Assembly: GCA_035477215.1 (NCBI GenBank)
Contig: DATIKU010000057.1
Span: 1-39,288, forward strand
Direction: 5' to 3'
From: Spirochaetota bacterium
GTDB lineage: Bacteria > Spirochaetota > UBA4802 > UBA5368
Length of the DNA stretch: 39,288 nt
The position numbers and the translations under genes were made by a program. Shown one piece after another: positions 8,853 through 39,143 of this stretch. How positions within the stretch are numbered: the first letter of the stretch is position 1; the number at the start of each line of letters is the position of its first letter. The notes under the pieces are model-generated. The model made no database searches and was not told the DNA's origin. It was given only the letters and a program-made list of their open reading frames with translations.

Positions 8853-10355
8853 TTATCTCCTGGGGAGGCATTCCCCGGCGTCGTCCCGGTAATAGCCTTC
8901 TTTACACACACAGGCGCCCTTCCGCTCGGCCCATGCTTCATTCGCCTTTACGCATTTTTTGACACACACGTATGTGGCGCTTCCCTTGCCCCGGGGGACC
9001 ATTCGCTCGTCGTCCGCGCACCTGTCGACACAGGCTCCGCGGTATGAGATTATTTTACAGGGCTCGCAGCGATCAGTGCGGGGGTTCAACCGGTGGCCCT
9101 TCACGCATTCACAGGCGCTTCGGTCCGAGTTCCACTGCTCATGCTCCCTGCAGTCGCAGTATCCGTCTTCGTTTATTATGCCCCTGCGGGCCTCGCACTT
9201 TGTCCTCAGGCTTTCCCGCTTTTCCGCCTGCCTCTGGGACTGCGTTTTCCAGGCGGCGCGTTCCTTTTTCATCTTTTCCATCTCGCGGTCGAGCTCTCTC
9301 TGCTTCTCGGCCAGCCTCTTCTCTTCCTCGGTCTTTTCCTTTCCTTCAATCTCAGTCGTTAATATCACTTTTGCGCTGTCAAGCTCGGCCTGCCTGATCC
9401 TGATATCCGTTTCACGGTCGTCATGTTCCTTTTTGGCACGGTTCAGCTCCATGCGGGTTTCGTCGAGCTGCGTTTTAGCGGTATCAAGCTCCTTCTTCAT
9501 GCTCTGCATCTGCTCGGTGGCCTGGCCCAGCCTGCCCCGCGTGCTTTCCAGTTCACCGATGGTGGTATCCAGTTTCTTTCTGGCCGCCGCCAGTTCCCTG
9601 CCCGTGTTCGAGAGATCCTCTTTGGCCCCCATGAGGCTTCCGATCGTTTTGTCCAGCTGGCCCCTGGTGGCACCAAGCTCACCCCTGGTTTTGTTGAGTT
9701 CTTCGATTGCCTTGTCGAGCTCGTTACCCGTAGTATCGAGCTTTTCCTTTACCCGGTCGTAATTGTCCTTAAGGGAGATCATCCGCCATTTCATTTCGGC
9801 TTCACGCTCGCGTATGCGCGAGGAAAGGCCGAAGTTGAACCGGGCGGCTATTCCATAGTTCAGCGCAATCTTATGGCCTGGGGAAATCTCCAATGCAGGC
9901 GCCACGAATGCCGACAGGGTTATGGGGTAGCGCAGAAACGGCATGGATAATCCAACGGGAATCCGCAGGTTTCTGTAGGTCTCGTTATTCCGGTATCCAC
10001 CCAGCGAACCGAAGCCCGTGAATACCCGGATGCGCGTGCCCGCCAGACGATAGAGATCGTGGAACTCGTAGAGAAGGTCGAATGAATAATACAGGTCCCC
10101 ATTGAGGGCGGCCCCCACCGAGATGTCCAGGCCGAAAGCGTCGGTTATCCAGTAGCGCATATCCAGCCCCGAGGGCGTGCCGACAACTCCGCCGATTTCG
10201 AAGTTCCTCTTCTGCGTAAATGGATACGACTCCGGGTAGGGGTCGCGGGCGTTTTCCGTCATTTCCACGGCATTCAGATGTGCGTTTCCCGGCCCCAGTA
10301 TTATTAAGGCACATAGCACCAGGCTGACTGTGATTGGATTTACCGGTGGTTTCAT
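8853..10355 (-). CDS. Exported outer-membrane-barrel / coiled-coil / Cys-rich protein
   Basis: A 500-residue protein in three parts. After a signal peptide (about 1-30), residues 45-180 alternate short amphipathic strands and look like a small outer-membrane barrel (IGGVVGTPSGLDMRYW and similar). Residues 185-385 form a long coiled coil containing eight consecutive 14-residue units (about 205-316), nearly all with Leu at unit positions 2 and 9. Residues 387-496 carry 14 cysteines in CxC, CxxC and longer spacings, resembling EGF/TNFR-like disulfide-rich modules. No whole-length family was recognised. It is the first gene of the operon with the MotA-like and VWA genes, so a physical link between outer membrane and motor is the natural inference. 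Confidence 0.82.
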   Translation of the reverse strand: MKPPVNPITVSLVLCALIILGPGNAHLNAVEMTENARDPYPESYPFTQKRNFEIGGVVGTPSGLDMRYWITDAFGLDISVGAALNGDLYYSFDLLYEFHDLYRLAGTRIRVFTGFGSLGGYRNNETYRNLRIPVGLSMPFLRYPITLSAFVAPALEISPGHKIALNYGIAARFNFGLSSRIREREAEMKWRMISLKDNYDRVKEKLDTTGNELDKAIEELNKTRGELGATRGQLDKTIGSLMGAKEDLSNTGRELAAARKKLDTTIGELESTRGRLGQATEQMQSMKKELDTAKTQLDETRMELNRAKKEHDDRETDIRIRQAELDSAKVILTTEIEGKEKTEEEKRLAEKQRELDREMEKMKKERAAWKTQSQRQAEKRESLRTKCEARRGIINEDGYCDCREHEQWNSDRSACECVKGHRLNPRTDRCEPCKIISYRGACVDRCADDERMVPRGKGSATYVCVKKCVKANEAWAERKGACVCKEGYYRDDAGECLPRR

Positions 10356-15584: not shown

Positions 15585-15788
15585 TCAATTGCCGCGGAAT
15601 CTTGCCCATACCCGCGGAAAATAAGCCCCGATTATTATAAGGCCGAGCCCCATCAGAGTCCATTTCGTAAAGAGCACGTTTGGCTCGAAGCGGGTTAAAC
15701 CGACATTCAGGATGCTTATATACCAGCCGATCACCATCAGAGCGACACCTGTCAGGTTTGGAAGAATGAAACTCCCTGTCTTTTCCAT
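15585..15788 (-). CDS. Small two-TM membrane protein
   Basis: A 67-residue protein with two hydrophobic helices (about 11-31 and 42-59) and a basic C-terminus (RVWARFRGN). The start has a GGGAG ribosome site. The fold resembles the many short DUF-type inner-membrane proteins found beside stress genes, but no particular family was recognised. It faces the histidine kinase gene on the opposite strand and is not part of an obvious operon. Confidence 0.65.
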   Translation of the reverse strand: MEKTGSFILPNLTGVALMVIGWYISILNVGLTRFEPNVLFTKWTLMGLGLIIIGAYFPRVWARFRGN

Positions 15789-16388
15789 TTTCTGGCTCCC
15801 TTTATTTTCTCCGACTCAAGGATAGAGCGGATACCGCCCGCTTCCACTCCTCGATTGTACGACGATCAAATGCAAACGGCAAGAAGAATATATGCAGACC
15901 ACGTACCGTGCATTCAAGGAGGCCGTCATCCCGGAAAAAATATTCAGCATGCCTGAAACGAGTCGATACAAAATTGTCCTGACCTGGCGGCAGGAATTTG
16001 GCCTTGACATAATTGAAATCTCATGCAATTCTCAACTGAGGATTTCAGGCAACGACGATGCCGCGGGCAGCTGAATATTCGGTACAGTTGTATTATAGAA
16101 ACGCCGTACAAAGCCAGGGGCACGGGACCGGCGCCTTCTCAAAGTCCGAACCTTCTCTCTTAAGTTTTACAAATGCGTATCATATTCACGACTCTCCCGT
16201 CGGGACCTCCAACAGGAAACATCACCGATGATAGAGGAGCCGGGACCGCGGCGACAACACCAACGGTATTATAGTCCAGACCCCGGCTTATTGTTGAATA
16301 CAAGAATATGTGAAACAGGCTTGCCGTCAGCCCGCGGAGAGACCCGCCGGATACGCGGCAACTCTGACAGTCCGCCAGGGAGAGCACC
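15789..16388. other. 600-bp region without a supported gene
   Basis: The gap lies between the divergent small membrane protein and pldA. Several short frames occur on both strands but none has a good ribosome site together with protein-like content. TTGACA at about 16004 has no convincing -10 partner. No RNA structure was recognised. Confidence 0.4.
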
Positions 16389-17195
16389 ATGTATAAAATT
16401 ATTTTATTGTCTGTGCTGATCATGTTCGCCACGACAAAAATATATTCACAGGAGGAAACAGGGGATACCCCCCCGGCCGACAGCGAACAGAAGGAAGACG
16501 TGAAAGTTCCCTACTCTCCCCTGTCGGTATACAAGTGGAATTATCTGATTTTCGGAAACAGTGACGATCAGGTCAAGGCCCAGTTGAGCCTCAAGTACGA
16601 ATTCATCAGGGAGTCGGGGATATTTCTCGGGTACAGCCAGAGCATGTTCTGGATGCTTTACGAAAAATCCAGCCCTTTCTCTGAAATTAATTTTAATCCT
16701 GAAGTATTCTGGAACTACGGCGACAAGATCGATTTTCTGCAGCTCGGATTTTACGAACATAAATCCAACGGCAAGGACGGGCTGTCATCGCGCGCCTGGG
16801 ACAGAAGCTACGCCCAGTTCCAGACCAGCACCGGCAGGTCTTTCAACGCGGGCATCGATATAAAAGTATTTTATTACCTGAGAAAAGCCGAGGAAAACAG
16901 GGACATTGACGACTACACGGGTTATTATGAGGCCAAGATATTTTTCAGATTCATGAAACCCGGTCCGGACAGCATAACGTTTAACGAGGAACTATACTTT
17001 CGAGGGGGCACGGGGAAAGGCAACTACGGGTTTGACTGTAAGAAAGGATGGATAGAAGCGGGAGTAAAGCTCAGGGTTCCAATACAGTCGATCCAGCCCC
17101 ATTTCTTTATACAGGGTTTTTATGGCTACGGGGAGTCAATGGTTGTATACAATAAGAAAGATTTTGCCGTAAGAGCCGGATTTGTGATCAAATAA
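16389..17195 (+). CDS. pldA: Outer membrane phospholipase A (OMPLA/PldA family)
   Basis: A 268-residue exported protein with a signal peptide (about 1-20) and a 12-strand-barrel-like body. It has the family marks NYLIFGNSDDQVKAQLSLKY, the tryptophan/aromatic YSQSMFWMLYEKSSPF stretch and the active-site segment His124-x-Ser126-Asn-Gly followed by RAWDRSY. In Escherichia coli OMPLA the catalytic residues are His142, Ser144 and Asn156. Here the third position is Asp138 with exactly the same spacing, giving an Asp-His-Ser arrangement. The enzyme hydrolyses phospholipids that reach the outer leaflet and helps keep the membrane asymmetric, which fits the PqiA-like protein nearby. A GGGAGAG ribosome site supports the start. 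Confidence 0.92.
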   Translation: MYKIILLSVLIMFATTKIYSQEETGDTPPADSEQKEDVKVPYSPLSVYKWNYLIFGNSDDQVKAQLSLKYEFIRESGIFLGYSQSMFWMLYEKSSPFSEINFNPEVFWNYGDKIDFLQLGFYEHKSNGKDGLSSRAWDRSYAQFQTSTGRSFNAGIDIKVFYYLRKAEENRDIDDYTGYYEAKIFFRFMKPGPDSITFNEELYFRGGTGKGNYGFDCKKGWIEAGVKLRVPIQSIQPHFFIQGFYGYGESMVVYNKKDFAVRAGFVIK

Positions 17196-27250: not shown

Positions 27251-27967
27251 TCAATACCCCCACTCCTCATGCCGCACCGGCAGTCTGTTCAGCTGGTCCC
27301 GGTGGAACTTCCATTTCGGCATGAACTTTTCCATAATGGCCACGAAGCGCTCATTGTGGGTGGGTTCGATGAGGTGCGCCATCTCGTGCACCAGGATGTA
27401 CTCGAGGCACTCCGGCGGTTTCTTTGCGAGGTCGGTGTTGAGGCGGACGTGGCCGGCTTTCGGATTGCAGCTGCCCCAGCGTGTTTTCATGTGCTGGATG
27501 AAGACCTTTTTCACCTTCACGCCAAGGCGGGGCTCCCATCGGGCGAGAAGCTCGGGGAGGGCCGCCCTGATCTGGTCCCTGAGCCACTGGGACACTATGG
27601 CGTCCCTCGCGTCATCCCCGGTTCCCGGACGCACGTAGAGCTTCATGGAACGGTGCCCGAGCTCCACGCGGGGAGGGGCATCCTCCTCGACCACGGTGAG
27701 GAGATACCGCTTCCCCCAGACATAGTGGCTTTCCCTGTCGATGAACTCCCGGGGTGTTTCCCGCTCCTGTTCCCGCAGCTTTTTCCGCTGCCGCTTGATC
27801 CATGCGAGCTTCGAGATTGCATAGACGCGGATGGTGTCGAGATTCATGTGTGACGGCGCTGAAATCCGCACCTTCCCGTCCGGCGGGTAGACGCTCAGGT
27901 GGACGTTCTTTATCTTCTTGAAGACGACGTCCGCGTCGAATTCCCCCAGGTCGATTCTCCGCCCCAT
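27251..27967 (-). CDS. YgjP/SprT-like (M48-type) zinc metallopeptidase
   Basis: A 238-residue protein of the YgjP/DUF45 family. The zinc site HEMAH at 194-198 and the third ligand His204 (EPTHNERF) are present, preceded by the family motif TRWGSC at 162-167. These proteins are often encoded next to type I hsdR genes. The start shares one base with the hsdR stop (TGATG), so translation is coupled. Its role in R-M is not established; turnover of the restriction subunit is a reasonable hypothesis. Confidence 0.9.
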   Translation of the reverse strand: MGRRIDLGEFDADVVFKKIKNVHLSVYPPDGKVRISAPSHMNLDTIRVYAISKLAWIKRQRKKLREQERETPREFIDRESHYVWGKRYLLTVVEEDAPPRVELGHRSMKLYVRPGTGDDARDAIVSQWLRDQIRAALPELLARWEPRLGVKVKKVFIQHMKTRWGSCNPKAGHVRLNTDLAKKPPECLEYILVHEMAHLIEPTHNERFVAIMEKFMPKWKFHRDQLNRLPVRHEEWGY

Positions 27968-30900
27968 CAGTACTCCGCCTGTGCCTTGACGACAAGGAAG
28001 ATCCGCTCCACCTGCTGTTCGTCCTGGAGGACTTCATAGAGGGCGCGCTTTATCGCCTGCTCGCGCGTCTGGACGCCGCGCCATCCATCGGGCCTGTTGT
28101 CCTTTACCGCCTTATCAAGCTTGATTGCCAGATCCAGCCTTGGATCAACGAGGCCGCCCTTACCCTCGGCGACTTTGGAGCTCTCCGGTTTCAGGTTGTT
28201 GTAGATCGCCCGCAGGGCCTGGCTTTTCTTTAAGGGTTCCGGTGTATCGTCGCTGTGGCCGGCATCGACCTTTTTCGCGAGCTCCGCGATCTGTTTGAGG
28301 TATTCCTCGTACTCCACTGCCTTCGCCTTGCGGGCCGCGATGATCTCGTTCAGGAGCGCCGACATCTTCTCGTAGTAGGCCGGGTCGTTCAGGTGCTCCC
28401 TGACGATCTTCTTCCGGACGTTGTTCTCGATGGTCTCGGCGATGGCGTTCTTGTCGCCCTTCAGGCCCCCGAGGCTGGAGGTGATGGCGTTGGCGATGCC
28501 GGTCTTCACGATGAGATCCCAAAGACCCATGTTGTCGAAGGGCGATATCTTCCTCGGCTCCTCCGCCTCGATATAGGTATCGATGAGGTGGCGCATATCG
28601 GCCTCGTAGGCCTTCAGGTCGATACTCTCGCCGCTTGCCTTCCGGATGATCTCCCGGAGGTTCAGGTACTCTTCCAGCTCCTTCTTGATGCGGGCGATAT
28701 CGTCCCGGTCATACCCGGCGGGCTCCAGTTCGTCGGCGATGGCGGCGTAGGCGCGCACAAGGGCCACGGTCGACCTGTACAGGGTCTCCCGCCGGGGCTC
28801 GTGCTCTTTCAAATCATCCGGGATCTCGGTGTTGCCGCAGAAGTAGTGGATGTGCTCCAGCTCGCCCCCGGGCGGCTCCACGGGCTCACAGAGGAGCGCG
28901 AGCGACTCCAGTGCGCCGTCGAGGCGCTCCCTGCCTTTCCGGAGGCGGTCCTGAATCATCACCTCGGGATCGGCCCCGCCCGCGCTATGGTCCAGCTCCG
29001 AGGTGTAGACGGCGATGGCGTTCTCGACTTTGTTGAAGAGGTCCTTGTAGTCGACGATATGGCCGAACTCCTTGTCCTCGCCGTCCAAACGGTTGACCCG
29101 GCAGATGGCCTGAAAGAGTCCGTGGTCCTGCATCGACTTGTCGATGTAAAGATAGGTGCAGGGCGGCGCGTCGAAGCCGGTGAGGAGCTTGTCGACCACC
29201 ACCAGAAGCTTCATGTTCGCCGGCTCTTTCGTGAAAAGCTCCTTCGCCCGGTCTTCGTAGACCTCGGTCTTCGTCTTGCCGCCTTTGGCGACGACACCTT
29301 CCAGAAGCTCGGTGTAGGTAGTGTAGATGAATTCCCTGTCCGTCTCGGTGTTCGCCCCGGTGTCTTCCTTCGTAATGTCCTGGGCATTGGGATTGTAGGA
29401 GGTCACAATGGCGCACTTTCCCGCGAAGGGCGTCTTCTGGAACATGGCGAAGTACTTGCACGCCTCGTAGATGCTCGACGCCACCAGGATGGCATTCCCC
29501 CGGTCATTGGAAAGCCGCGGCTTCATGCTGAAGTCGAAGACGATGTCGGCCACCACGCGCTCCATGCGGGACTTCGAACTGAGGACTGTCTGCAGGGTAC
29601 CCCACTTCTTTTTCAGCTCTTCCCTCTGCCAGTCGTTGAGGCCCCGGGTCTTCGCCTCGAACCATGCGTCGATCTTCTCCTTCGAGCCGAGTTTCTGGTC
29701 GATGTCCCGCGCCTCGTACACCAGGTCGAGGACCACGCCGTCTTCCACGCCCTCGCTGAACTTGTAGGTGTGGATGTAGCCGCCGAACACCTCCAGGCTG
29801 GTGGCCCTGTCCCTCGTTAGGAGCGGCGTGCCGGTAAAACCGATGAAGACCGCGTTGGGCATGATCGCCTTCATGGCCCGGTGAAGCTTGCCGCTCTGGG
29901 TGCGGTGGCACTCGTCCACGAAGACGAAGACCTCGCCCACGGTCGCGCTCGGCCGCGCTTCCAGGTCCTTTATGAAGGTGTCGAAATCGTCCACGTCCTT
30001 CCTTCCGAACTTGTGAATGAGCGAACAGAGGAGCCGCGGCTTCGCCTTCCCAAGCCGGGTGACGAGATCGCGGCCGCTCGAGGTGCGCACAATCTCCTCG
30101 CCCGCGTCGCCGAAGACGCGCTCTATCTGCTTGTCCAGCTCGTCGCGGTCGGTGATGACGGCCACCCGGGCATGGGGGTTGTTCTCTAGTATCCACTTCG
30201 CCAGGAGCACCATGACGATGCTCTTGCCGCTCCCCTGGGTGTGCCAGATGATGCCGCTCTTGTGCTCCCGCACGTGCTTCTGCGCCGCCTTGATGCCGAA
30301 GTACTGGTGCACCCGCGGCAGTTTCTTGATGCCCCCGTCGTAGAGCACGAAGTCGCGCATGAGCTCGATGAGGCGCTCCTTTGAGCACATCTTGAGGAGG
30401 TACTTGTCGAGCTTGTAGCGGCTGTCATCCGCCTCGTCCTCCTTCCAGGCGAGGAAGTACTTCTCCGGCGTGCCGATTGAACCATACCGCAGTCCCTCGG
30501 AGTCGTTCCCGGCGAAGACGAACTGCACGGTGCTGTAGAACCACTCGTTGAACTCGGGCTTCTGGTTGGAGATGCTCTGCCGGATCCCCTCCCCTATGGA
30601 AACACCGCTTCGCTTGAGCTCCAGGACCGCGACGGCGATGCCGTTGACGTAGAGGACGATGTCGGGCCGCCGCTCGTGGTTTCCCCGGAGAGTCACCTCC
30701 TCGGCGATGGAGAAATCGTTCTTCCGCGGGTTCTCCCAGTCGATCAGGCGTACGGTTTCCGTAACCGTGCCCGCCTCGATCTTAACCGGTACGCCGTAAC
30801 GCAGGAGGGAATAAACGGCCCTGTTGTTTCCATAGAGGCCCCGGCCGTGGTTGTCCGCCTCCCCGTGCAGAACGTACAGGGCCCTGCTGATATGGTCTCT

Positions 30901-31065
30901 CGTATAGCCGCTTTTCGCGAGCCAAGACGACAGCAGGTCTTCCTCTATGTTGCTGTTCAAATCCCGGCACCCCCAGTTCCCCAGGTAGTCGTAACCCAGT
31001 TCGTCCCGAAAGAGGGCGCTGACGCGGTTCTGTGTAGCGCGTTCCGGCTTGCCTATGTCGCTCAC
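27967..31065 (-). CDS. hsdR: Type I restriction endonuclease subunit R
   Basis: A 1032-residue motor/nuclease subunit that translocates DNA with ATP and cuts far from the recognition site. The N-terminal nuclease has a PD-(D/E)XK core (Pro134-Asp135 and Glu149-Leu-Lys151). The helicase motor has Walker A HTQGSGKS (275-282), DECHR (384-388) and GFTGTPL, followed by the C-terminal part that binds the methylase. The chosen start is GTG 31065, with a GGAGGTG ribosome site 5 nt away; the open frame extends farther upstream but only through the preceding gene. The GTG overlaps the stop of the winged-helix fragment (GTGA). Its stop overlaps the metallopeptidase start. Confidence 0.95.
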   Translation of the reverse strand: MSDIGKPERATQNRVSALFRDELGYDYLGNWGCRDLNSNIEEDLLSSWLAKSGYTRDHISRALYVLHGEADNHGRGLYGNNRAVYSLLRYGVPVKIEAGTVTETVRLIDWENPRKNDFSIAEEVTLRGNHERRPDIVLYVNGIAVAVLELKRSGVSIGEGIRQSISNQKPEFNEWFYSTVQFVFAGNDSEGLRYGSIGTPEKYFLAWKEDEADDSRYKLDKYLLKMCSKERLIELMRDFVLYDGGIKKLPRVHQYFGIKAAQKHVREHKSGIIWHTQGSGKSIVMVLLAKWILENNPHARVAVITDRDELDKQIERVFGDAGEEIVRTSSGRDLVTRLGKAKPRLLCSLIHKFGRKDVDDFDTFIKDLEARPSATVGEVFVFVDECHRTQSGKLHRAMKAIMPNAVFIGFTGTPLLTRDRATSLEVFGGYIHTYKFSEGVEDGVVLDLVYEARDIDQKLGSKEKIDAWFEAKTRGLNDWQREELKKKWGTLQTVLSSKSRMERVVADIVFDFSMKPRLSNDRGNAILVASSIYEACKYFAMFQKTPFAGKCAIVTSYNPNAQDITKEDTGANTETDREFIYTTYTELLEGVVAKGGKTKTEVYEDRAKELFTKEPANMKLLVVVDKLLTGFDAPPCTYLYIDKSMQDHGLFQAICRVNRLDGEDKEFGHIVDYKDLFNKVENAIAVYTSELDHSAGGADPEVMIQDRLRKGRERLDGALESLALLCEPVEPPGGELEHIHYFCGNTEIPDDLKEHEPRRETLYRSTVALVRAYAAIADELEPAGYDRDDIARIKKELEEYLNLREIIRKASGESIDLKAYEADMRHLIDTYIEAEEPRKISPFDNMGLWDLIVKTGIANAITSSLGGLKGDKNAIAETIENNVRKKIVREHLNDPAYYEKMSALLNEIIAARKAKAVEYEEYLKQIAELAKKVDAGHSDDTPEPLKKSQALRAIYNNLKPESSKVAEGKGGLVDPRLDLAIKLDKAVKDNRPDGWRGVQTREQAIKRALYEVLQDEQQVERIFLVVKAQAEY

Positions 31066-31388
31066 TGTATCACCTCCCAGCGACTTCCCTTCTGCGGTCC
31101 GACAAAACGAAGTCTGCCATCCTTGACAAGTTTTGAACTGGCACGTTCCACCGCTCTCAGTGACTTGCCGATCGCCTCCGCGGTTTCTGCCAGGGTCGCA
31201 TGTGGATGTCCTGACAGGCATTCAAGGATTTTAACGGGTGTTTTTACCGTCGTTTTCACCGGCGCTTCTACCGTCGTTTCCACCGGCGTTTCCACCGCCG
31301 TCTTGTAGCTGAACTCCACCCAGAGGCCCGCGTGATCGTATCTGATATCCGGTTCTTTCGTGCCCGATTCCCTGCAGGCCGTGATCAT
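31062..31388 (-). CDS. Winged-helix fragment of a second ATP-binding regulator
   Basis: A 108-residue protein that begins where full-length members of the AlbA_2/HATPase_c_4 regulator family reach their last third. Its opening CRESGTKEPDIRYDHAGLWV aligns with CVAAGLNEPEFRLTDGF of the neighbouring 499-residue protein. A Pro-Val-Lys/Thr repeat linker and a winged-helix domain (ILECLSGHPHATLAETAEAIG) follow. It looks like the retained C-terminus of a lost paralogue. However, it has clean ATGA overlap with the upstream gene and GTGA overlap with hsdR, so it is still translated and may act as a stand-alone DNA-binding regulator or a translational coupler for hsdR. Confidence 0.75.
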   Translation of the reverse strand: MITACRESGTKEPDIRYDHAGLWVEFSYKTAVETPVETTVEAPVKTTVKTPVKILECLSGHPHATLAETAEAIGKSLRAVERASSKLVKDGRLRFVGPQKGSRWEVIQ

Positions 31389-32884
31389 TTTTTGCCTTTT
31401 CCAGTGCTCATCGATTTCAGCAGACCCTTACCTTTTTTTGTAAGGCGGTATTTCTGCAACCTGCTATTCGGCTTGTCCGGAATGGTCATTTCAATGAGAT
31501 TCGCCTCAAGCGCCGGGACAAGGTATGCTTCTCGAAAGTGGTCTTCATGGCGCAGTCCGAGGACTTTCTGCATCTCGGTTCGCTTCATCTCTCCTTCAAT
31601 AATCACGAGCAGTTTCTTGACTTCCCCGGTGACTTCCCCGGTGACTTCCCCGGTGACTTCGGATGTTATTAATTCATGCTTTCGCCAGATGACCGCGACA
31701 AATCCATCGGTCAGTCTGAATTCCGGTTCATTCAAACCTGCTGCAACGCATCGGGAAATCATATCGCGGATGCCAGTCCCCATGCGCTCAATATATTTGG
31801 CAAGGTAGAGCGGCTCGGCAAGCAGGGGATTACCGGGCACCGAACCGTGCGGCTGCCTCAGTTTCTCCAGCGTCAGCGAAGGAGGCAGCGTACCCGGGTT
31901 CCACACCTCCAGCCGGTCGGCAAACAGCATCACCTGGACGCTGCCGGTGCTTGTATAATCGCGGTGCGCGATGGCGTTCACGACCGCCTCACGTACTACT
32001 TCCGGAGGTATTTCATAGGCCACAGGGGCCTGTATGCTTTTCGCGCGTGTGCCGACGGCAAGGTTGATCTTTGAAAGGACAAAATCAACAGCCTGGTCCG
32101 CCAGTTCGAAAACCGTTCCCTTATAGACCTGATATGAAGGAATCGGTTTAGTTTCTTGCGTGCCGTGGAAATGAGCGCACTTTACTTCGGATGAAATCAG
32201 GAATCGCTGGGGACGCTTTCCGAAGAGCAGAACAGACGCGTTAGTGAGACGCCCCTCGTCAAGTAGATTGAGGTGCGTTAACAGCTCATCCGGCGGGGCT
32301 TCTTCCTGTAACGGGAATCCCCGCGATCGGCGGGCAATGCCGATGAAGCGTGACATGGCCGCGCCGTCCAGATCGGCCAGAGTCGCTTTCAGACAAGGGG
32401 CCGCGTCGAACGGCCCCGAACGTATCAGCTCATTCTTCGTGAGATATTCAACAAGAGCGGCATAGAGATGGGAAACCAGCTCCGGGGTGCTGGCAAAGCG
32501 CCGGCGAATAAGTTCATTCCCCGCTTTTCCTATGAGCGCCCGCATTTTAGCGTGCTTGATCGAATCATCCGTTCCCTTGACGAATATCAGGCGGTGCTTG
32601 CCCAGCTTTCCGGCAAGCGCGAACTCGCGTTCGGTGGGTGAAACGCCTTCGGCGTCCTCGAAACCATACTGCTCGCCGAACAGTCCCACGTAAATGTCGC
32701 ACTTTTCCACTTCATGCAGATACACCTCGTCGGCCCTGCGGTCCGCGGCGGGGACGTCCTCGAACAGGAAGGGGTCGAAGAAACGACGCATCAGGGCGTC
32801 GCCTCGCAGGTAATCGCGAAGCGCCGCCCGTTCATCGGCAAACTCCTTCTGCACGCTGCTGATGAATATACGTATCGTTTTCAT
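31385..32884 (-). CDS. DUF4062 (TIR-like) / HATPase_c_4 / winged-helix regulator
   Basis: A 499-residue protein. Residues 1-110 are a DUF4062 domain (RIFISSVQKEFADERAALRD, then CDIYVGLFGEQYG), a TIR-related alpha/beta fold common at the front of defence NTPases. The middle (about 165-400) contains the HATPase_c_4 ATP-binding domain with VREAVVNAIAHRDY and LEVWNPGTLP. A linker with EVTG repeated three times is followed by a C-terminal winged helix. The linker repeats are also exact in DNA: three copies of a 12-bp unit at 31619-31654. The gene lies 39 bp after the NucS-like gene. A sensor or regulator role in the defence operon is inferred. Confidence 0.85.
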   Translation of the reverse strand: MKTIRIFISSVQKEFADERAALRDYLRGDALMRRFFDPFLFEDVPAADRRADEVYLHEVEKCDIYVGLFGEQYGFEDAEGVSPTEREFALAGKLGKHRLIFVKGTDDSIKHAKMRALIGKAGNELIRRRFASTPELVSHLYAALVEYLTKNELIRSGPFDAAPCLKATLADLDGAAMSRFIGIARRSRGFPLQEEAPPDELLTHLNLLDEGRLTNASVLLFGKRPQRFLISSEVKCAHFHGTQETKPIPSYQVYKGTVFELADQAVDFVLSKINLAVGTRAKSIQAPVAYEIPPEVVREAVVNAIAHRDYTSTGSVQVMLFADRLEVWNPGTLPPSLTLEKLRQPHGSVPGNPLLAEPLYLAKYIERMGTGIRDMISRCVAAGLNEPEFRLTDGFVAVIWRKHELITSEVTGEVTGEVTGEVKKLLVIIEGEMKRTEMQKVLGLRHEDHFREAYLVPALEANLIEMTIPDKPNSRLQKYRLTKKGKGLLKSMSTGKGKK

Positions 32885-32923: not shown

Positions 32924-33853
32924 TCACCCCTTCACCAGCTTGAAGTTTACCTGGTAACGATAGAATGAAACCACCGGCGCCGCGGCAAGCGCCCAGCGCA
33001 GCTTTTTATCGTCCTCGAGCGCGATGATGACGCCTTCGACCGTCTGATCGGGCTCGGCGATCTGTTCCTTTACGTAGCCCATATAGCGCAGGATCTGGCC
33101 GACTACGACATCCGATGCCCGGCCGCGCTTGAGCTCGACGACCAGAAGCCGCCCGCCGTCCTTGCTTACGGCGAGGATGTCGATCGGACCGGCATCCGTT
33201 TCGTATTGCTGCCCGACCGGTTCGCCCTCCTCCTCATAGATCGAGAACTCCTTTCCCAGTTCGGTCTGGTTCCAGTTGGCGACGAGAAAGGCCTCCAGGT
33301 GTTTTTCCATTGCGAAGGCGACCGGGTCCTCGACCGCGGGGTCCGAGGCGACGATGTCCACGGAGGCGTTTCCCTGCTCCAGGAATCGTTCGATTTCCCT
33401 CGCGTGTCCGGTGATGGTGCTGACCGTGCCGATGGAACCGGTGGAGTTCTGCAGGGCCTCGCTCATCGCGGTGCGGGCGATGGACACGGGTAGCCAGTTG
33501 ATCTTTCGCCGGTGCGGGAGCACCAGGCCAGGAGCGTAATAATAATCGCCTGCCACCTCGCCCACCCTGTACACGCCGGTGCCGTCCGGCGAGAGCACGA
33601 TGTCGCCCTTCTGTATTCCTTTTGAAACCGTCCACAGCGCGCCGCAGGCCAGCCCGGCGCCGATTTTGCTTTTACCGGGCTCCTTCGCCAGCATGACGGG
33701 GATGAATCGCTTATTGAATTCCTTCCATTCGTCGGGCAGTTTGCCGGTGAGGTCCTGGTCCAATCCGAAATCCGCGCCGATATATCCGCCCGCAAAGCAT
33801 TCCGCCGCCAGGGCGCTTTTTTTACCGAGCATGATACGGTAATAGTTTCTCAT
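32924..33853 (-). CDS. NucS-like PD-(D/E)XK nuclease with an N-terminal reader-like domain
   Basis: A 309-residue protein. The C-terminal DUF91/NucS-like nuclease core has Asp225 (GPIDILAV), Glu240-Leu-Lys242 and Gln253 (GQILRYMGYV). The N-terminal 120 residues, from YYRIMLGKKSALAAECF through KGDIVLSPDGTGVYRVGEV to LPHRRKINWL, resemble the PUA/EVE-like domain found at the front of restriction proteins that read modified bases; this is judged by eye. The start overlaps the glycosylase-like stop by 4 bp (ATGA). A modification-dependent cutting or nicking activity would fit its place beside a DNA-glycosylase-like protein. Confidence 0.82.
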   Translation of the reverse strand: MRNYYRIMLGKKSALAAECFAGGYIGADFGLDQDLTGKLPDEWKEFNKRFIPVMLAKEPGKSKIGAGLACGALWTVSKGIQKGDIVLSPDGTGVYRVGEVAGDYYYAPGLVLPHRRKINWLPVSIARTAMSEALQNSTGSIGTVSTITGHAREIERFLEQGNASVDIVASDPAVEDPVAFAMEKHLEAFLVANWNQTELGKEFSIYEEEGEPVGQQYETDAGPIDILAVSKDGGRLLVVELKRGRASDVVVGQILRYMGYVKEQIAEPDQTVEGVIIALEDDKKLRWALAAAPVVSFYRYQVNFKLVKG

Positions 33854-34584
33854 TCTGATATAGCCTTTAGCGTTGATTTCAATTCACGCACTCGATCTGG
33901 AAGTTCAAACTGATCTTTGTAAATAGAAATATTCCATTCACTCTTTTCATATTTGCCTTTCAGGCCTACAAAATTATTATTCCTACACCGCCATTTTCGA
34001 CATGATTGGATATCGTTGACGTTGAAGAACGCATCATGCGTATCATGGAGACTATGTTTCCCCGGGATAATATCTGGTGGATTGAAATCAATTTCGGGGT
34101 GCTTTAACAGGGCATCGTGTAAGAGCTCTTTCGCGGTTATTCCGGGTCCTCCTGTAGCTCGGGGAACGAGTAGTTTGCCATCTTCCTTGATAAGGTTCCG
34201 CAGTAAGAAGCTTACTGGAACACCCTCAGGACCCACAACGATGTCGATCCGATTCCAATTGGATTTCCTGTCCATTTTAGAATAGAAACGAAGTCCTGCT
34301 TCCATCTGTCTCGGGGTGTTTTTCCATGATTTACTATTCTTCCTCGCTTTGAATTGCTTCCTCCACCAGTCATGACACTCATCTCCAATGCCGCCATAGT
34401 ACAGTTCAACCATGGCAATGATATACAGTGTGTTATTTGTAATAAGTGTTGAGCCGATCAGCCTTTCCCCAACATCCAGTGCCGCATTTTCGGAATCACG
34501 AAGACCATTTTCATCCAGATCACCCGTCTCCGTGATTATATGGTTCCTGATTCTTGGATCAAGATAGAATGGAGTATCGCTCAT
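33850..34584 (-). CDS. Alkylpurine DNA glycosylase (AAG/MPG)-like protein within the R-M operon
   Basis: A 244-residue protein that fits the MPG fold in several blocks: an opening ALDVGERLIGSTL, then VELYYGGIGDECHD, NTPRQM, the highly characteristic DIVVGPEGVPVSFLLRNL and finally GGPG. In human AAG the catalytic Glu125, intercalated-base contacts Tyr127 and His136 occur as E-x-Y-x8-H. Here Glu60, Tyr62 and His71 have exactly that spacing. The family flips out a base and cuts its glycosidic bond. Here the gene overlaps hsdS and the NucS-like gene by 4 bp each, which makes it an integral operon member. A defence role is inferred; a housekeeping repair role is less likely in this setting. Confidence 0.68.
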   Translation of the reverse strand: MSDTPFYLDPRIRNHIITETGDLDENGLRDSENAALDVGERLIGSTLITNNTLYIIAMVELYYGGIGDECHDWWRKQFKARKNSKSWKNTPRQMEAGLRFYSKMDRKSNWNRIDIVVGPEGVPVSFLLRNLIKEDGKLLVPRATGGPGITAKELLHDALLKHPEIDFNPPDIIPGKHSLHDTHDAFFNVNDIQSCRKWRCRNNNFVGLKGKYEKSEWNISIYKDQFELPDRVRELKSTLKAISE

Positions 34585-35855
34585 ACCAGCCGTATCCTCC
34601 CCGTTAGCAACTCCTGCATCATTCCCTGCTTGACCTGCCGCGCCTTTGCGAGCTTCTCCTCCAGCGCGGCGATCTCCGCGTCCATGTCGCTCAGGATGGC
34701 GGCAATGGCGGTTTGTTCGGATAGAGAAGGAAATAATCCTTGGATTTCAGACAAGGATGTTCCGCTTATATGGACGATAGCATCACCTTGACCTCTGCTT
34801 GCCTTCTGTCTGATAATGGGCGCAGTATTCAGATAATAGCCAAGATAAAGCGGGTCAACATTCTCTGTTCTGAGAATGACGATATCTCCCCCTGCATAGG
34901 CTTCGATATCATCCACAAACGCGACGCATTTACCGATTTCTTCCTTCGTTTCTCCAGAACCAGCAAATAAGATATCTCCATGCTGCAAACGAGTTGCTGT
35001 TGCTGCAACATCATGCGAAATCCATGAGTTGAAAGACTTGATGAAGTATTCATGATGCGTGTATATTTCCCCATATCTGACACAGGGGATTTTGCCGCTT
35101 TGTGATTGTTCTCTGGAAACACCGCTTCCTTTTAAGAATGTTCCAATCTGTCCCAGCCGCTTCTCCTCCCACTCCCCACTGAATCCCGGCAACCGCAGGT
35201 TTAATTGAGAATGGACAATGGATAATTGAGAATTATCACCATTCTCCATTTTCAATTCTCCATTATCAATTGGCGTTGGCTCCGGAGGAGACAAAAGCCT
35301 CTGCATGGCGCCCTGCTTGACGAGACGCTTCTTGGCGATGATCTGCTCCAGTGATTCGATGAGGGCGTCCGCATCACTCAAGGCCCCGGCGATGGCTTCC
35401 TGCTCTGCGAGGGTGGGAGGGAGAGGGATTTGCATTCTTGCTATCATATCTCGTCGCACAGAATCAACTGATGATTTAGCAGTCATCTGCATGATTCGAT
35501 TATAGAAGTGTGAACTGAAATACAAATAGAAGAAGAATCCGTTTATGCCCTCCTTGAAGTCAGATATTCTGTATACCCGCTGGTGAACATCAAACTTGCC
35601 ATTAATATAGTGAAACACCTTGCCAGTTCCCACGCCGTCGCCTGCAGTTAAGACTGCTTCTCCATCAAATGAATAACTATTTATCCGCTCAATGTTTTGA
35701 GAACGGACAAAGAATGGATATAGTCCATCTTCAACACGATCTTGTGTGTTCTTTCCGCCGGTTGTTATATAGGCCAAGTTTTCGACATATTCAAGATTCC
35801 AATCCTCGGGTATTACATCCACTTCTGTCTGTTTATATCCAGGTTTCACTTCCAT
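34581..35855 (-). CDS. hsdS: Type I restriction-modification specificity subunit S
   Basis: A 424-residue specificity subunit with two target-recognition domains (about 12-150 and 235-375). Each is followed by a coiled spacer: AEQEAIAGALSDADALIESLE with KQGAMQRLL, and SEQTAIAAILSDMDAEIAALE with KQGMMQELLTG. These set the two half-sites of the DNA target and their spacing. The region between the halves (about residues 196-218) is encoded by an inserted palindromic repeat (35203-35271). The start overlaps the hsdM stop by 10 bp and its stop overlaps the glycosylase-like start. The gene is visibly AT-richer than hsdM, which suggests exchange of the specificity cassette. Confidence 0.95.
   Translation of the reverse strand: MEVKPGYKQTEVDVIPEDWNLEYVENLAYITTGGKNTQDRVEDGLYPFFVRSQNIERINSYSFDGEAVLTAGDGVGTGKVFHYINGKFDVHQRVYRISDFKEGINGFFFYLYFSSHFYNRIMQMTAKSSVDSVRRDMIARMQIPLPPTLAEQEAIAGALSDADALIESLEQIIAKKRLVKQGAMQRLLSPPEPTPIDNGELKMENGDNSQLSIVHSQLNLRLPGFSGEWEEKRLGQIGTFLKGSGVSREQSQSGKIPCVRYGEIYTHHEYFIKSFNSWISHDVAATATRLQHGDILFAGSGETKEEIGKCVAFVDDIEAYAGGDIVILRTENVDPLYLGYYLNTAPIIRQKASRGQGDAIVHISGTSLSEIQGLFPSLSEQTAIAAILSDMDAEIAALEEKLAKARQVKQGMMQELLTGRIRLV
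35203..35271. repeat. Palindromic repeat inserted in the hsdS linker
   Basis: A 69-bp (23-codon) stretch of AATTGAGAATGGA-like units and their imperfect complement (TCCATTTTCAATT, TCCATTATCAATT) forms two arms of about 31 bp around a 6-nt centre. It translates as a low-complexity ELKMENG and NSQLSIVHSQLN linker, wording seen widely where such repeats enter genes. Its length is a multiple of three, so hsdS stays open. Confidence 0.7.
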
Positions 35856-38269
35856 GCAAACCCCATCCTCTCAAGATGCGCCTTCACCTTCGCCTCAAGC
35901 TCTGCCACGCGGTTCGCCATCGCCGGCATCGGCGCCTCGTAGCGCTCGGCAAGCTCCTTCACACGTCGGGTGAGGGCCTGGCTCACGCGGTCCATCTCGC
36001 CGTGGATGGCCGTCTCGAGGGCGGCAAGCCACTTGTCGTCCACCACCAGGGCCTTCACATCGGCCTCGGAAAGCTTCGGGTACCGGGCGTAGGCCTTCGC
36101 GTCAAGATCGGCTTCGGCTTCCTTGAGGCGCTTCTTGAGGGAGGCTTCCTCGTCGCAAAGCGTCATCCACTCAGTGAGAACGGCGGCTTCGTCCTTCGAC
36201 TCCGCGTCGCCCTTGATCTCCTTCAGCCTTGAAGCGACATTCGCCTTGTTCACCTTGTCAAGCTCCGAGAACGCGCCCTCATCGCCCCCGTGCTCCTCCT
36301 CGAGCTCTGCCATCCGTGCGGAGACGCCCTCCAGCTCCGCCGCGAGCGCCTCGACGGCCGCCCGATCCTTCGCGAAGTACCGGGCGATCACGAGGTCCCG
36401 CAGCACCAGGTCGCAGGTCCAGCCCTTGTCCACCTGCTTCCCCGGTTTGCCGTCCTTTCCTTTCTTTGTTTCAATTATCCGGTACGTTTCGGCCTTCCAG
36501 CCGTCGTCGGAAATGAGATAACAGTCGTCCTGCATGGTCTCCGCCCAGTAGTCCATGATGTGCTGGTAGATGTCGTAGTTGTCGACGAGCGGCTTCCCCT
36601 TGTAATGGCACAGCAGGTCCTCGGAAAGCGTGGCAATGAGCTCTCTCGGGTGGAAGCCCTTCGCGAGCGCCCTGAGCGTCTTCGCGCTCTTCTTCCGCCA
36701 GGCGGCGAAATGTGCGTTCATGCCGGTAATGAAGTCGGTGAACTCCGGGTGCTCGTAGATGGCGGTCTTGATGGCCGACTTCTCCACGGCGAGGTCGAGG
36801 TAGCCCGGGCGGTTCTCCCTGAAGAGGGCCGCCCTGAGCTTCGGGCAGATGTCCCAGTAGCGCTGGAGCGCGTCCACGTCGGCGGCGGGAATGCCGCCCT
36901 TCAGGTGCCCGGAGATATCCTGATAATCCTCCGGCTCGGTGCTGTCGATGTAGCGCGGCAGGTTCAGGTTGAACTCGTTCTTCTCGATCTCCGCGAAGCT
37001 CACCATGCGCGAATATTTAGAGAGGTCGATACACCGGTTGAAGGTGTCGACTATCCGGTGGATGTCCTGGGCGCGCAGGCGGTTCTTGGGGCCGTCCTTC
37101 ATGAAGCCGGCGCTCGCGTCGATCATGAAGACGCCCTTGCGCGCGTTCGCTCCCGCCTTGTCGACAACCACGATGCAGGCCGGGATGCCCGTGCCGTAGA
37201 AGAGGTTCGCCGGCAGGCCGATGATGCCCTTGAGGTAGCCCTTGCGCACCAGGTTCCGGCGGATCTCCGCCTCGGCGCCGCCCCGGAAGAGCACCCCGTG
37301 GGGAAGGATGCACGCGCCTTTTCCCGTGCTCTTGAGCGACCGGACGATGTGCAGCAGATACGCGTAGTCGCCCTGTTTCGCCGGCGGCGCGCCGAAGTGC
37401 GTGAAGCGCCCGTGGGGATCGTTCATCGGATCGAGTCCCGTGCTCCAGCGCTTGTCGGAAAAGGGCGGATTCGCGACCACGTAGTCGAAGGTCTTGAGCG
37501 TGTCGCCGTCCTTAAACTTCGGGTCGGAGAGCGTGTTCCCCTGCACGATAAGCGCCTCCGGGTTGTTGTGGAGGATCATGTTCATCCGCGCCAGGCCCGA
37601 TGTGGCGGCGTCCTTCTCCTGCCCGTAGATGGTGATCTTCGACTTGGCCTCGTCAGCCAGCTTCAGCAGGAGCGATCCGGAACCGCAGGTGGGGTCGTAG
37701 GCCGTGGTGGCGGCGCTGGTCTTCGCCTCGCGGATGCCCGATATCTGCGCCATAATGCGGCTCACCTCGGCGGGCGTGTAGAACTGGCCCTTACTCTTGC
37801 CGCTTTCCGTGGCGAAGTGCCGCATCAGGTACTCGTAGGCGTCGCCAAGGATATCGTCACCCTCGGCCCGGTTCTTCGAGAAGTCCAGGTCCGGGTCCTC
37901 GAAGATGGTGATGAGGTTCGTGAGCCGGTCCACCATCTCCTTCCCGCTCCCAAGCTTCGAAGCATCGTTGAAGTCCGGGAAGTCCGACGCCGACAGTTGC
38001 TGGTTCGCCTTCACCAGCGGCGCGATGACCTTCTTGTTGATCTGGTCGCCGATATCGCTCTTCCCCTTGAGCTTCACCATGTCCTCGAAGCCCGCGCCCT
38101 TCGGAATGGTGATGGGCGTGTACTTCTGCCCCGCGTACTTGTCGCTGATGTACTTTATGAAGAGGAGGACCAGCACGTAGTCCTTGTACTGGCTGGCGTC
38201 CATCCCGCCGCGGAGCTCGTCGCAGCTCGCCCAGAGGTGTGAGTAGAGTTCGGATTTCTTGAGGGCCAT
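35846..38269 (-). CDS. hsdM: Type I restriction-modification methyltransferase subunit M
   Basis: An 807-residue adenine-N6 methyltransferase. It has the HsdM N-terminal helical domain (to about 150), GQFYTP at 161-166, the SAM-binding motif DPTCGSGSL at 192-200 and catalytic NPPF at 267-270. The typical HsdM is about 500-550 residues; here a long C-terminal extension (from about 480) contains predicted helical and coiled-coil segments (near AALAAELEGVSARMAELEEE). The start at 38269 has a GGAG ribosome site; an upstream in-frame ATG at 38293 lacks one. It methylates the host target with HsdS and supplies the core of the restriction complex. Confidence 0.95.
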   Translation of the reverse strand: MALKKSELYSHLWASCDELRGGMDASQYKDYVLVLLFIKYISDKYAGQKYTPITIPKGAGFEDMVKLKGKSDIGDQINKKVIAPLVKANQQLSASDFPDFNDASKLGSGKEMVDRLTNLITIFEDPDLDFSKNRAEGDDILGDAYEYLMRHFATESGKSKGQFYTPAEVSRIMAQISGIREAKTSAATTAYDPTCGSGSLLLKLADEAKSKITIYGQEKDAATSGLARMNMILHNNPEALIVQGNTLSDPKFKDGDTLKTFDYVVANPPFSDKRWSTGLDPMNDPHGRFTHFGAPPAKQGDYAYLLHIVRSLKSTGKGACILPHGVLFRGGAEAEIRRNLVRKGYLKGIIGLPANLFYGTGIPACIVVVDKAGANARKGVFMIDASAGFMKDGPKNRLRAQDIHRIVDTFNRCIDLSKYSRMVSFAEIEKNEFNLNLPRYIDSTEPEDYQDISGHLKGGIPAADVDALQRYWDICPKLRAALFRENRPGYLDLAVEKSAIKTAIYEHPEFTDFITGMNAHFAAWRKKSAKTLRALAKGFHPRELIATLSEDLLCHYKGKPLVDNYDIYQHIMDYWAETMQDDCYLISDDGWKAETYRIIETKKGKDGKPGKQVDKGWTCDLVLRDLVIARYFAKDRAAVEALAAELEGVSARMAELEEEHGGDEGAFSELDKVNKANVASRLKEIKGDAESKDEAAVLTEWMTLCDEEASLKKRLKEAEADLDAKAYARYPKLSEADVKALVVDDKWLAALETAIHGEMDRVSQALTRRVKELAERYEAPMPAMANRVAELEAKVKAHLERMGFAWK

Positions 38270-38393
38270 TGTTCGCTCCGTTACATCATTCATCCGGCCG
38301 CGTGACGGCGCGTGCTCTTTATACCGCCCCGGCCCGGGCCGTGCAACTCAATCGCCAGCGGCAAATTCAGTCCGACGGCCGCGGACCGGTAGA

Positions 38394-39143
38394 TCAACCT
38401 AAATCCCGATTGACCTTTCTCAAATTGACGGACAGCTCGTATTCGAACAGATCGACGCTCTCAATCTGGGAACAGGCGATAAGCAGGTCCTCGGAAATGC
38501 TTCGGGCGATGATTATCCCGCGCACCTTCTGGCCCTTCTCCGCCAGGTTTTTGCGTATCCAGCCCGTGTAGCGCAGCAGCTGGCCGATCACCCGGTCGTA
38601 GCCCCTCGACACCTTGAGCTCGATGACGACGAAATCGTTGTTTTTGTCGAGGGCGAGAATATCGATATAGCGCCCGCCGACATCGTACTCGATACCGTTT
38701 ATGCCTTCATCCTGATAGAGCGTAAGCCCCTCCTCGACAAGGGAAAGGTTTTTCGCCAGGAAATTTTTCAAATCGCTTTCGTAGGCGAACTCGTACGCGT
38801 CGGCGATCTGTTCTTGCGGATCCCCCACGGGCTGCGGCTCCTTTCCGAGCTCATAAATCGGTGCCAGGTCCTTTTCCGGATCGTAAAGGCGCAACGACCT
38901 GTCCGGCAATTGGAAGAAGAGGTCATCGATGCCGTCGGGTGATGCATGATAATGGGGCCTGCTGGGGGCGTTCGTGGTCATTTTGGTTATATGGGCATCG
39001 ATGGTGCCCGGTTTTATTTTTGGATAGTTCTTCGAAAACCAGGACCGTATGTCATCCCGCTGAATCCGGCTTCCGGGAGTCATATTCGAAGCGGCAAAAT
39101 CTTTCATCAGCTCGCGGGTCGGTTTTTCATAAATCGTTTTCAT
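38394..39143 (-). CDS. Second NucS-like PD-(D/E)XK nuclease
   Basis: A 249-residue protein whose C-terminal half is a DUF91/NucS-like nuclease with Asp161 (RYIDILAL), Glu175-Leu-Lys177 (VVIELKVSRG) and Gln188 (GQLLRYTGWI). The N-terminal part (RELMKDFAASNMTPGSRIQRDDIRSWF to about 60) looks like a small helical DNA-binding module of the kind seen on restriction proteins. An AAAGGAGCAC ribosome site lies just before the ATG and is inside the terminal palindrome. It sits 124 bp upstream of hsdM in the same direction and may be the first gene of the defence island. Confidence 0.8.
   Translation of the reverse strand: MKTIYEKPTRELMKDFAASNMTPGSRIQRDDIRSWFSKNYPKIKPGTIDAHITKMTTNAPSRPHYHASPDGIDDLFFQLPDRSLRLYDPEKDLAPIYELGKEPQPVGDPQEQIADAYEFAYESDLKNFLAKNLSLVEEGLTLYQDEGINGIEYDVGGRYIDILALDKNNDFVVIELKVSRGYDRVIGQLLRYTGWIRKNLAEKGQKVRGIIIARSISEDLLIACSQIESVDLFEYELSVNLRKVNRDLG

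Follow-up and report, generated by a model that had tools for sequence, protein, structure and literature searches.

An AAG/MPG-superfamily protein lodged as cargo between hsdS and hsdR of a type I restriction-modification operon: a candidate base-excising defence enzyme in a Spirochaetota bacterium

The window considered here, i.e. the whole 39,288-nucleotide stretch that was analysed (contig DATIKU010000057.1 of the Spirochaetota assembly GCA_035477215.1), carries a type I restriction-modification (R-M) operon whose genes follow one another in the order hsdM, hsdS, predicted glycosylase, NucS-like gene, DUF4062/HATPase gene, small winged-helix ORF, hsdR and YgjP peptidase gene. They are given below in that order, with the supporting evidence in brackets.

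35846..38293, (-), hsdM, methyltransferase subunit (Pfam N6_Mtase, E 2.4e-97; NCBIfam hsdM, above cut-off)
34581..35855, (-), hsdS, specificity subunit (Pfam Methylase_S, E 2.6e-26; junction sequence)
33850..34584, (-), AAG/MPG-superfamily protein, a predicted DNA glycosylase of 244 aa (ORF, six-member alignment, hhalign, Foldseek)
32924..33853, (-), NucS-like protein of 309 aa, with an unnamed N-terminal domain and a NucS_C PD-(D/E)xK domain (Pfam NucS_C, E 7.9e-9)
31385..32884, (-), cargo gene with DUF4062, HATPase_c_4 and Fic-like_C (Pfam)
31062..31388, (-), winged-helix ORF of 108 aa, coupled to the preceding gene and to hsdR (Pfam HTH_24, E 4.9e-7; junction sequences)
27967..31065, (-), hsdR, restriction subunit (NCBIfam hsdR, E 1.7e-153)
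27251..27967, (-), YgjP/SprT-like metallopeptidase, last in this operon type (Pfam YgjP-like, E 3.4e-61; same place in sister operons)

The glycosylase ORF is intact, running from an ATG start to a TGA stop. Its start lies inside the end of hsdS and its end inside the start of the NucS-like gene; each overlap measures 4 bp and both junctions read ATGA, so that the overlaps reported in the initial annotation are confirmed by coordinates and sequence alike. The 3' end of hsdS holds a GGGGAGG ribosome-binding site serving the next gene. Farther down the operon, the junction indicates that hsdR likely starts with the GTG at 31065, in a GTGA overlap with the preceding ORF, and this 108-aa ORF looks like the remnant of a second DUF4062-type gene. 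The DUF4062 protein carries a VTGEVTGEVTGEV repeat, and the 108-aa ORF combines a similar TTVKTPVK repeat with its winged helix.

The NucS-like protein corresponds over its full length to the PADLOC phage-defence candidate PDC-S02 (E 5e-152), of which it, and not the glycosylase, is the member at this locus. Its catalytic motif appears intact; its N-terminal domain has no match in Pfam and nothing significant in the PDB. A further NucS_C protein, this one with DUF7669 at its N-terminus, is encoded at 38394-39143 (-), directly upstream of hsdM, the locus thus holding two NucS-type nucleases.

Comparison of profiles and of a predicted structure makes the window protein a divergent member of the AAG/MPG superfamily, and this fold assignment is well supported. 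The protein has no PF02245 match in Pfam, and the best of its relatives (L006, from another Spirochaetes genome) scores 25 bits (E 1.4e-5), short of the 27 bits that Pfam requires; in NCBIfam too, L006 comes closer (E 8e-4) than the window protein itself (E 0.09). When a profile of six members, the window protein and its five relatives, is compared by hhalign with 33 canonical AAGs (32 from the genomes examined, plus the human one), the score is 33.8 (E 2.2e-4, 133 columns), against a maximum of 22.4 over 200 column shuffles and 10.7 for the reversed profile. An AlphaFold model built on the six sequences (pLDDT 69.5, pTM 0.76) retrieves from the PDB, by Foldseek, human AAG chains at all of ranks 1-9 with probabilities of 0.93-0.99, the next match standing at 0.14; its overall superposition on human AAG is modest (TM about 0.4). 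A first model from three sequences was poor (pLDDT 48), and Foldseek nonetheless ranked AAG first. Neither a UDG nor a HALFPIPE structure appears among the top 50 PDB matches of the model. The initial annotation, which had described the protein as alkylpurine-glycosylase-like and suggested a structural comparison with AAG/MPG, is thereby upheld at the level of the superfamily by profiles, fold and catalytic residues.

The CD45 and immunoglobulin matches that also emerged from the searches are attributed to chance. In BFVD, the best matches to the model are two uncharacterised giant-virus proteins, A0A1V0SB56 of Catovirus (probability 1.00) and A0A3G5A9Y1 of Hyperionvirus (0.99).

The sequence marks noted at the outset are all in place, namely E-x-Y-x8-H at residues 60-71 (E60, Y62 and H71) with the spacing of human AAG Glu125, Tyr127 and His136, GPEGVP at residue 118 and GGPG at 145. 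By itself, the three-residue motif is weak evidence, being present in 1.3% of composition shuffles (0.09% when a Gly at +4, as in AAG, is added); the argument against chance therefore depends on the relatives. What takes the motif well beyond chance is its invariance in 6/6 family members, along with that of G64, D68, D114, R129, G145 and P147. The complete set of positions invariant in the alignment comprises E60, L61, Y62, Y63, G64, G67, D68, H71, D72 and R75, followed by R112, D114, G118, G121, V122, R129, N130, G145 and P147.

An HMM of the 33 canonical AAGs aligns with residues 36-71 of the window protein, with a gap before the motif only, and lays human Glu125, Tyr127 and His136 onto E60, Y62 and H71; in the relatives, it lays R182 onto R129 and N169 onto D114. 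The residue opposite Y159 is not aromatic (about K103). The hhalign path runs one residue off the HMM path within the motif; the gap-free HMM pairing is preferred because it retains the His as well. The counterparts of catalytic Glu125, Tyr127, His136 and Arg182 are thus E60, Y62, H71 and R129, invariant in all six members, and the AAG specificity residues Asn169 and Tyr159 are not retained. This pattern suggests that the fold and the catalytic set have been kept and that the base-recognition positions differ. Glycosylase activity is likely, to judge from the conserved residues.

The glycosylase gene is cargo, inserted in a variable slot of the operon and of an origin separate from that of the operon core. 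The argument is twofold: its GC3 is 42% against 77-88% for the NucS-like gene (77%), hsdR (84%) and hsdM (88%), and a sister operon has a NucS-domain gene at the very start that the glycosylase uses here. YgjP has a GC3 of 82%; the 48% of hsdS is not unusual for a gene with exchanged target domains. The sister operon in question, G158, is the nearest one and comes from the same family, its HsdM and HsdR being 84% identical to the window copies; it has no glycosylase copy. There, hsdS ends in CTGACGGGGAGGAAAAGGCTGGTATGA, whose ATG starts the NucS-domain gene; the same stretch in the window reads CTAACGGGGAGGATACGGCTGGTATGA, and the ATG starts the glycosylase, which thus takes over the exact start and ribosome-binding site of its neighbour. 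The G158 slot is filled by a NucS-domain/GmrSD_N fusion and a GmrSD protein. In detail (L062, 3150-5240 and 5237-7213), the NucS-like N-terminal domain is joined to GmrSD_N and DUF7834, and a full GmrSD gene follows. Standing ahead of two unrelated nuclease types, this unnamed domain of about 160 aa may be a targeting module.

Among 14 such operons, counting that of the window (hand-picked from match lists and not a random sample), the contents between hsdS and hsdR differ. The slot is empty in Sinorhizobium and Mycolicibacterium and reduced to short gaps in Rhizobium and Acetobacter, and in Acaryochloris a PDDEXK gene sits between hsdM and hsdS. Occupants elsewhere are GIY-YIG in two Rhodococcus (one with IS genes), a hypothetical gene in Pseudomonas, a TrlF-type ATPase with an RNA-binding-domain protein in Citrobacter, two DUF262 proteins in E. 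coli, NucS-like and Abi genes in the more distant operon of Acinetobacter, GxxExxY/PDDEXK_3 with NucS-like in G170, and NucS-like alone in G211; AAA genes are also among the occupants in sister operons. A SprT/YgjP peptidase closes every operon whose end was read. In G211 (L068, 5227-6668), hsdS seems to be broken or cut short: beyond a stretch with repeats comes a second MMQELLTGRIRL-type end. A comparable layout is known from the RRDM island of E. coli EPEC, where DarTG2 occupies the hsdS-hsdR slot and an M48 peptidase lies at the operon end (PMC12255303).

Searches with the protein and with small profiles yielded five relatives at 32-36% identity, namely L006 and four from a second phylum (L005, L014, which is partial, L015 and L016). 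The family is rare and very sporadic, being convincingly present in 2 of 393 Spirochaetes genomes and in 4 of 369 from the second phylum; the four genomes of the same genus that were searched, variable in their completeness, lack the gene, and no relative turned up in phages, plasmids or viral contigs at the sensitivities used. Weak matches in L003, L004 and L021 are judged to be chance: that in L003 lies in a kinase and that in L021 in a ligase-like protein, and the profile search leaves the L003 and L004 genomes unmatched.

No R-M or NucS-like genes occur in the flanks read around the other five relatives, which lie mostly outside evident defence islands; one adjoins AddAB-like genes. The linkage to hsdS and the NucS-like gene, for which the initial annotation proposed a neighbourhood survey, is thus seen in the window only. 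Its own counter-scenario, homologues that mostly sit apart from R-M genes and serve in ordinary repair, describes their location correctly, while nothing marks them as ordinary repair enzymes.

Positions 1609-4004 of L006 bring together two families of glycosylases, three consecutive genes of one strand encoding a deoxyinosine-glycosylase-like protein (TIGR04274, E 5e-11, below cut-off), a DUF7663 protein and the AAG-like protein; purine-type lesions would fit such neighbours, and repair fits them equally. In L016, the AAG-like gene is about 6 kb from a gene for a phosphorothioate-dependent restriction endonuclease (NF045808, just over cut-off; 8892-9464 and 15720-16643).

The main rival to a defence role is ordinary base-excision repair: a divergent AAG would remove alkylated or deaminated purines from host DNA and merely rest in an R-M operon. 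AAGs being classically repair enzymes, this is in keeping with the location of the five relatives outside R-M operons, one of them beside AddAB-like genes and another next to the deoxyinosine-glycosylase-like and DUF7663 genes, as well as with the lack of a canonical AAG in any carrier genome. The latter says little, because most sampled Spirochaetes also lack it; a swap of canonical AAG for the window-type protein is weak support, since common ancestry may be all that links the carriers with the genomes devoid of AAG. The sporadic spread, unlike that of a housekeeping gene, the absence from same-genus genomes, the foreign composition, the coupling to hsdS and a slot that in sister operons holds restriction or Abi genes all speak against repair, which is considered unlikely. 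Reuse of the fold for another purpose, be it binding, the hydrolysis of RNA or nucleotides, or suicide by a toxin that attacks the host's DNA, would account for the changes at the AAG specificity positions, and the slot does hold an abortive-infection gene elsewhere and also the DarTG2 toxin pair (PMC12255303); yet none of the four catalytic positions varies across the six divergent members and no antitoxin gene is recognised beside the glycosylase, which leaves this explanation improbable.

Two further explanations would tie the protein to the R-M enzymes themselves. The initial annotation had seen in it a dedicated partner of HsdMS, and in the NucS-like enzyme the nuclease that cuts its abasic sites; in such a two-step restriction, HsdMS would provide the choice of target. 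The ATGA-coupled order of the three genes and the intact look of the NucS-like catalytic motif are what this model would expect, but the NucS-like gene occurs without a glycosylase in three other operons (G170, G211 and Acinetobacter), its N-terminal domain in a fourth (G158, fused), and the glycosylase occurs without a NucS-like gene in five other genomes (flanks read). Each being kept without the other, dedicated cooperation is unlikely, even though translation looks coupled here; the strong difference in GC3 between the two genes and the variable nature of the slot point the same way, and the two-step model is decidedly improbable. Most improbable of all is a restriction glycosylase in the style of R.PabI, which would strip normal bases from HsdS sites that HsdMS has left unmethylated. 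Enzymes of this type exist (PMC10273834) and the gene is coupled to a methyltransferase operon, but the fold is that of AAG and not HALFPIPE, the operon already has a complete HsdR, and the relatives have no adjacent methyltransferase.

The reading preferred here, whose probability is evenly balanced, is that of an embedded defence gene carried in the hsdS-hsdR slot, a base-excising AAG/MPG relative likely directed against a non-canonical base in foreign DNA. Such a base, probably a modified or damaged purine not handled by HsdMSR, would be flipped from the foreign DNA into the protein pocket, where E60, held by R129, would activate a water and the glycosidic bond would be cut; the abasic sites left behind would stop the invader from being copied or become substrates of the cell's general AP endonucleases. 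The GmrSD family is known for its attack on modified phage DNA, and GmrSD-type restriction proteins occupy the slot in G158, a point in favour of this reading. With unmodified DNA dealt with by HsdMSR and proteins of that type in the sister slot, the likeliest target would be a base that HsdMSR misses, and a modified purine is the guess because AAG enzymes favour purines. Points to the contrary are the location of the other five members outside R-M operons, the changes from N169 to D114 and of Y159 to about K103, and the TM of about 0.4 to human AAG; the lack of a canonical AAG in carrier genomes would also suit a repair substitute. A bolder extension, less likely than not, is an anti-phage branch of AAG/MPG that excises a modified purine (e.g. 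of the 7-deazaguanine or 2-aminoadenine type) from phage genomes and is carried in type I R-M operons against phages whose modification defeats restriction, a purine counterpart of Brig1 and Brig3.

With the AAG/MPG family (PF02245; human AAG, Bacillus Aag) the window protein shares the fold, the order of elements, and the order and local spacing of the catalytic Glu, Tyr, His and Arg. It differs from it in its identity of about 15%, in being unmatched by Pfam, in the N169 and Y159 positions, and in its embedding in a type I R-M operon, whereas AAG/MPG is a stand-alone repair gene. It appears to represent a new AAG subfamily, found once as R-M-embedded cargo.

Brig1 and Brig3 are anti-phage DNA glycosylases that excise phage-modified cytosines, and Brig1 homologues are found in defence islands; their authors assign both to uracil-DNA-glycosylase ancestry, the Brig3 preprint also likening the core to human AAG (PMC11078745, PMC13160076). 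By analogy, the window protein would work in the same manner, a phage-modified base being excised to leave abasic sites; the Brig enzymes are UDG-superfamily members acting on modified cytosine, in contrast to a model with no UDG in its top 50. The R.PabI family of restriction glycosylases likewise ties base excision to an R-M locus, with the difference of a HALFPIPE fold and of the sequence-specific excision of a normal adenine unless methylated (PMC10273834). Of the defence genes known from within type I R-M operons, DarTG2 in the RRDM island agrees with the window in its position between hsdS and hsdR, the metallopeptidase in the operon and the variable occupant; DarTG2 is, however, an ADP-ribosyltransferase toxin pair (PMC12255303), and PrrC and RloC, also embedded in such operons, are anticodon nucleases (PMC2610378). 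In the papers searched, no glycosylase was found described as a type I R-M embedded occupant and no defence glycosylase against modified purines; likewise, no AAG-type enzyme with an anti-phage role was found in the open-access literature searched.

The use of base excision as a weapon against phages is a recent finding, and both Brig enzymes described are UDG-type and act on modified cytosine. There is good reason to regard the window protein as a candidate defence enzyme excising a base from foreign DNA, and as a concrete, testable one: a single small gene with clear catalytic residues and a sister operon with GmrSD-type occupants. If an AAG-fold enzyme does serve in this defence slot, a second repair superfamily would have been recruited, plausibly against modified purines.
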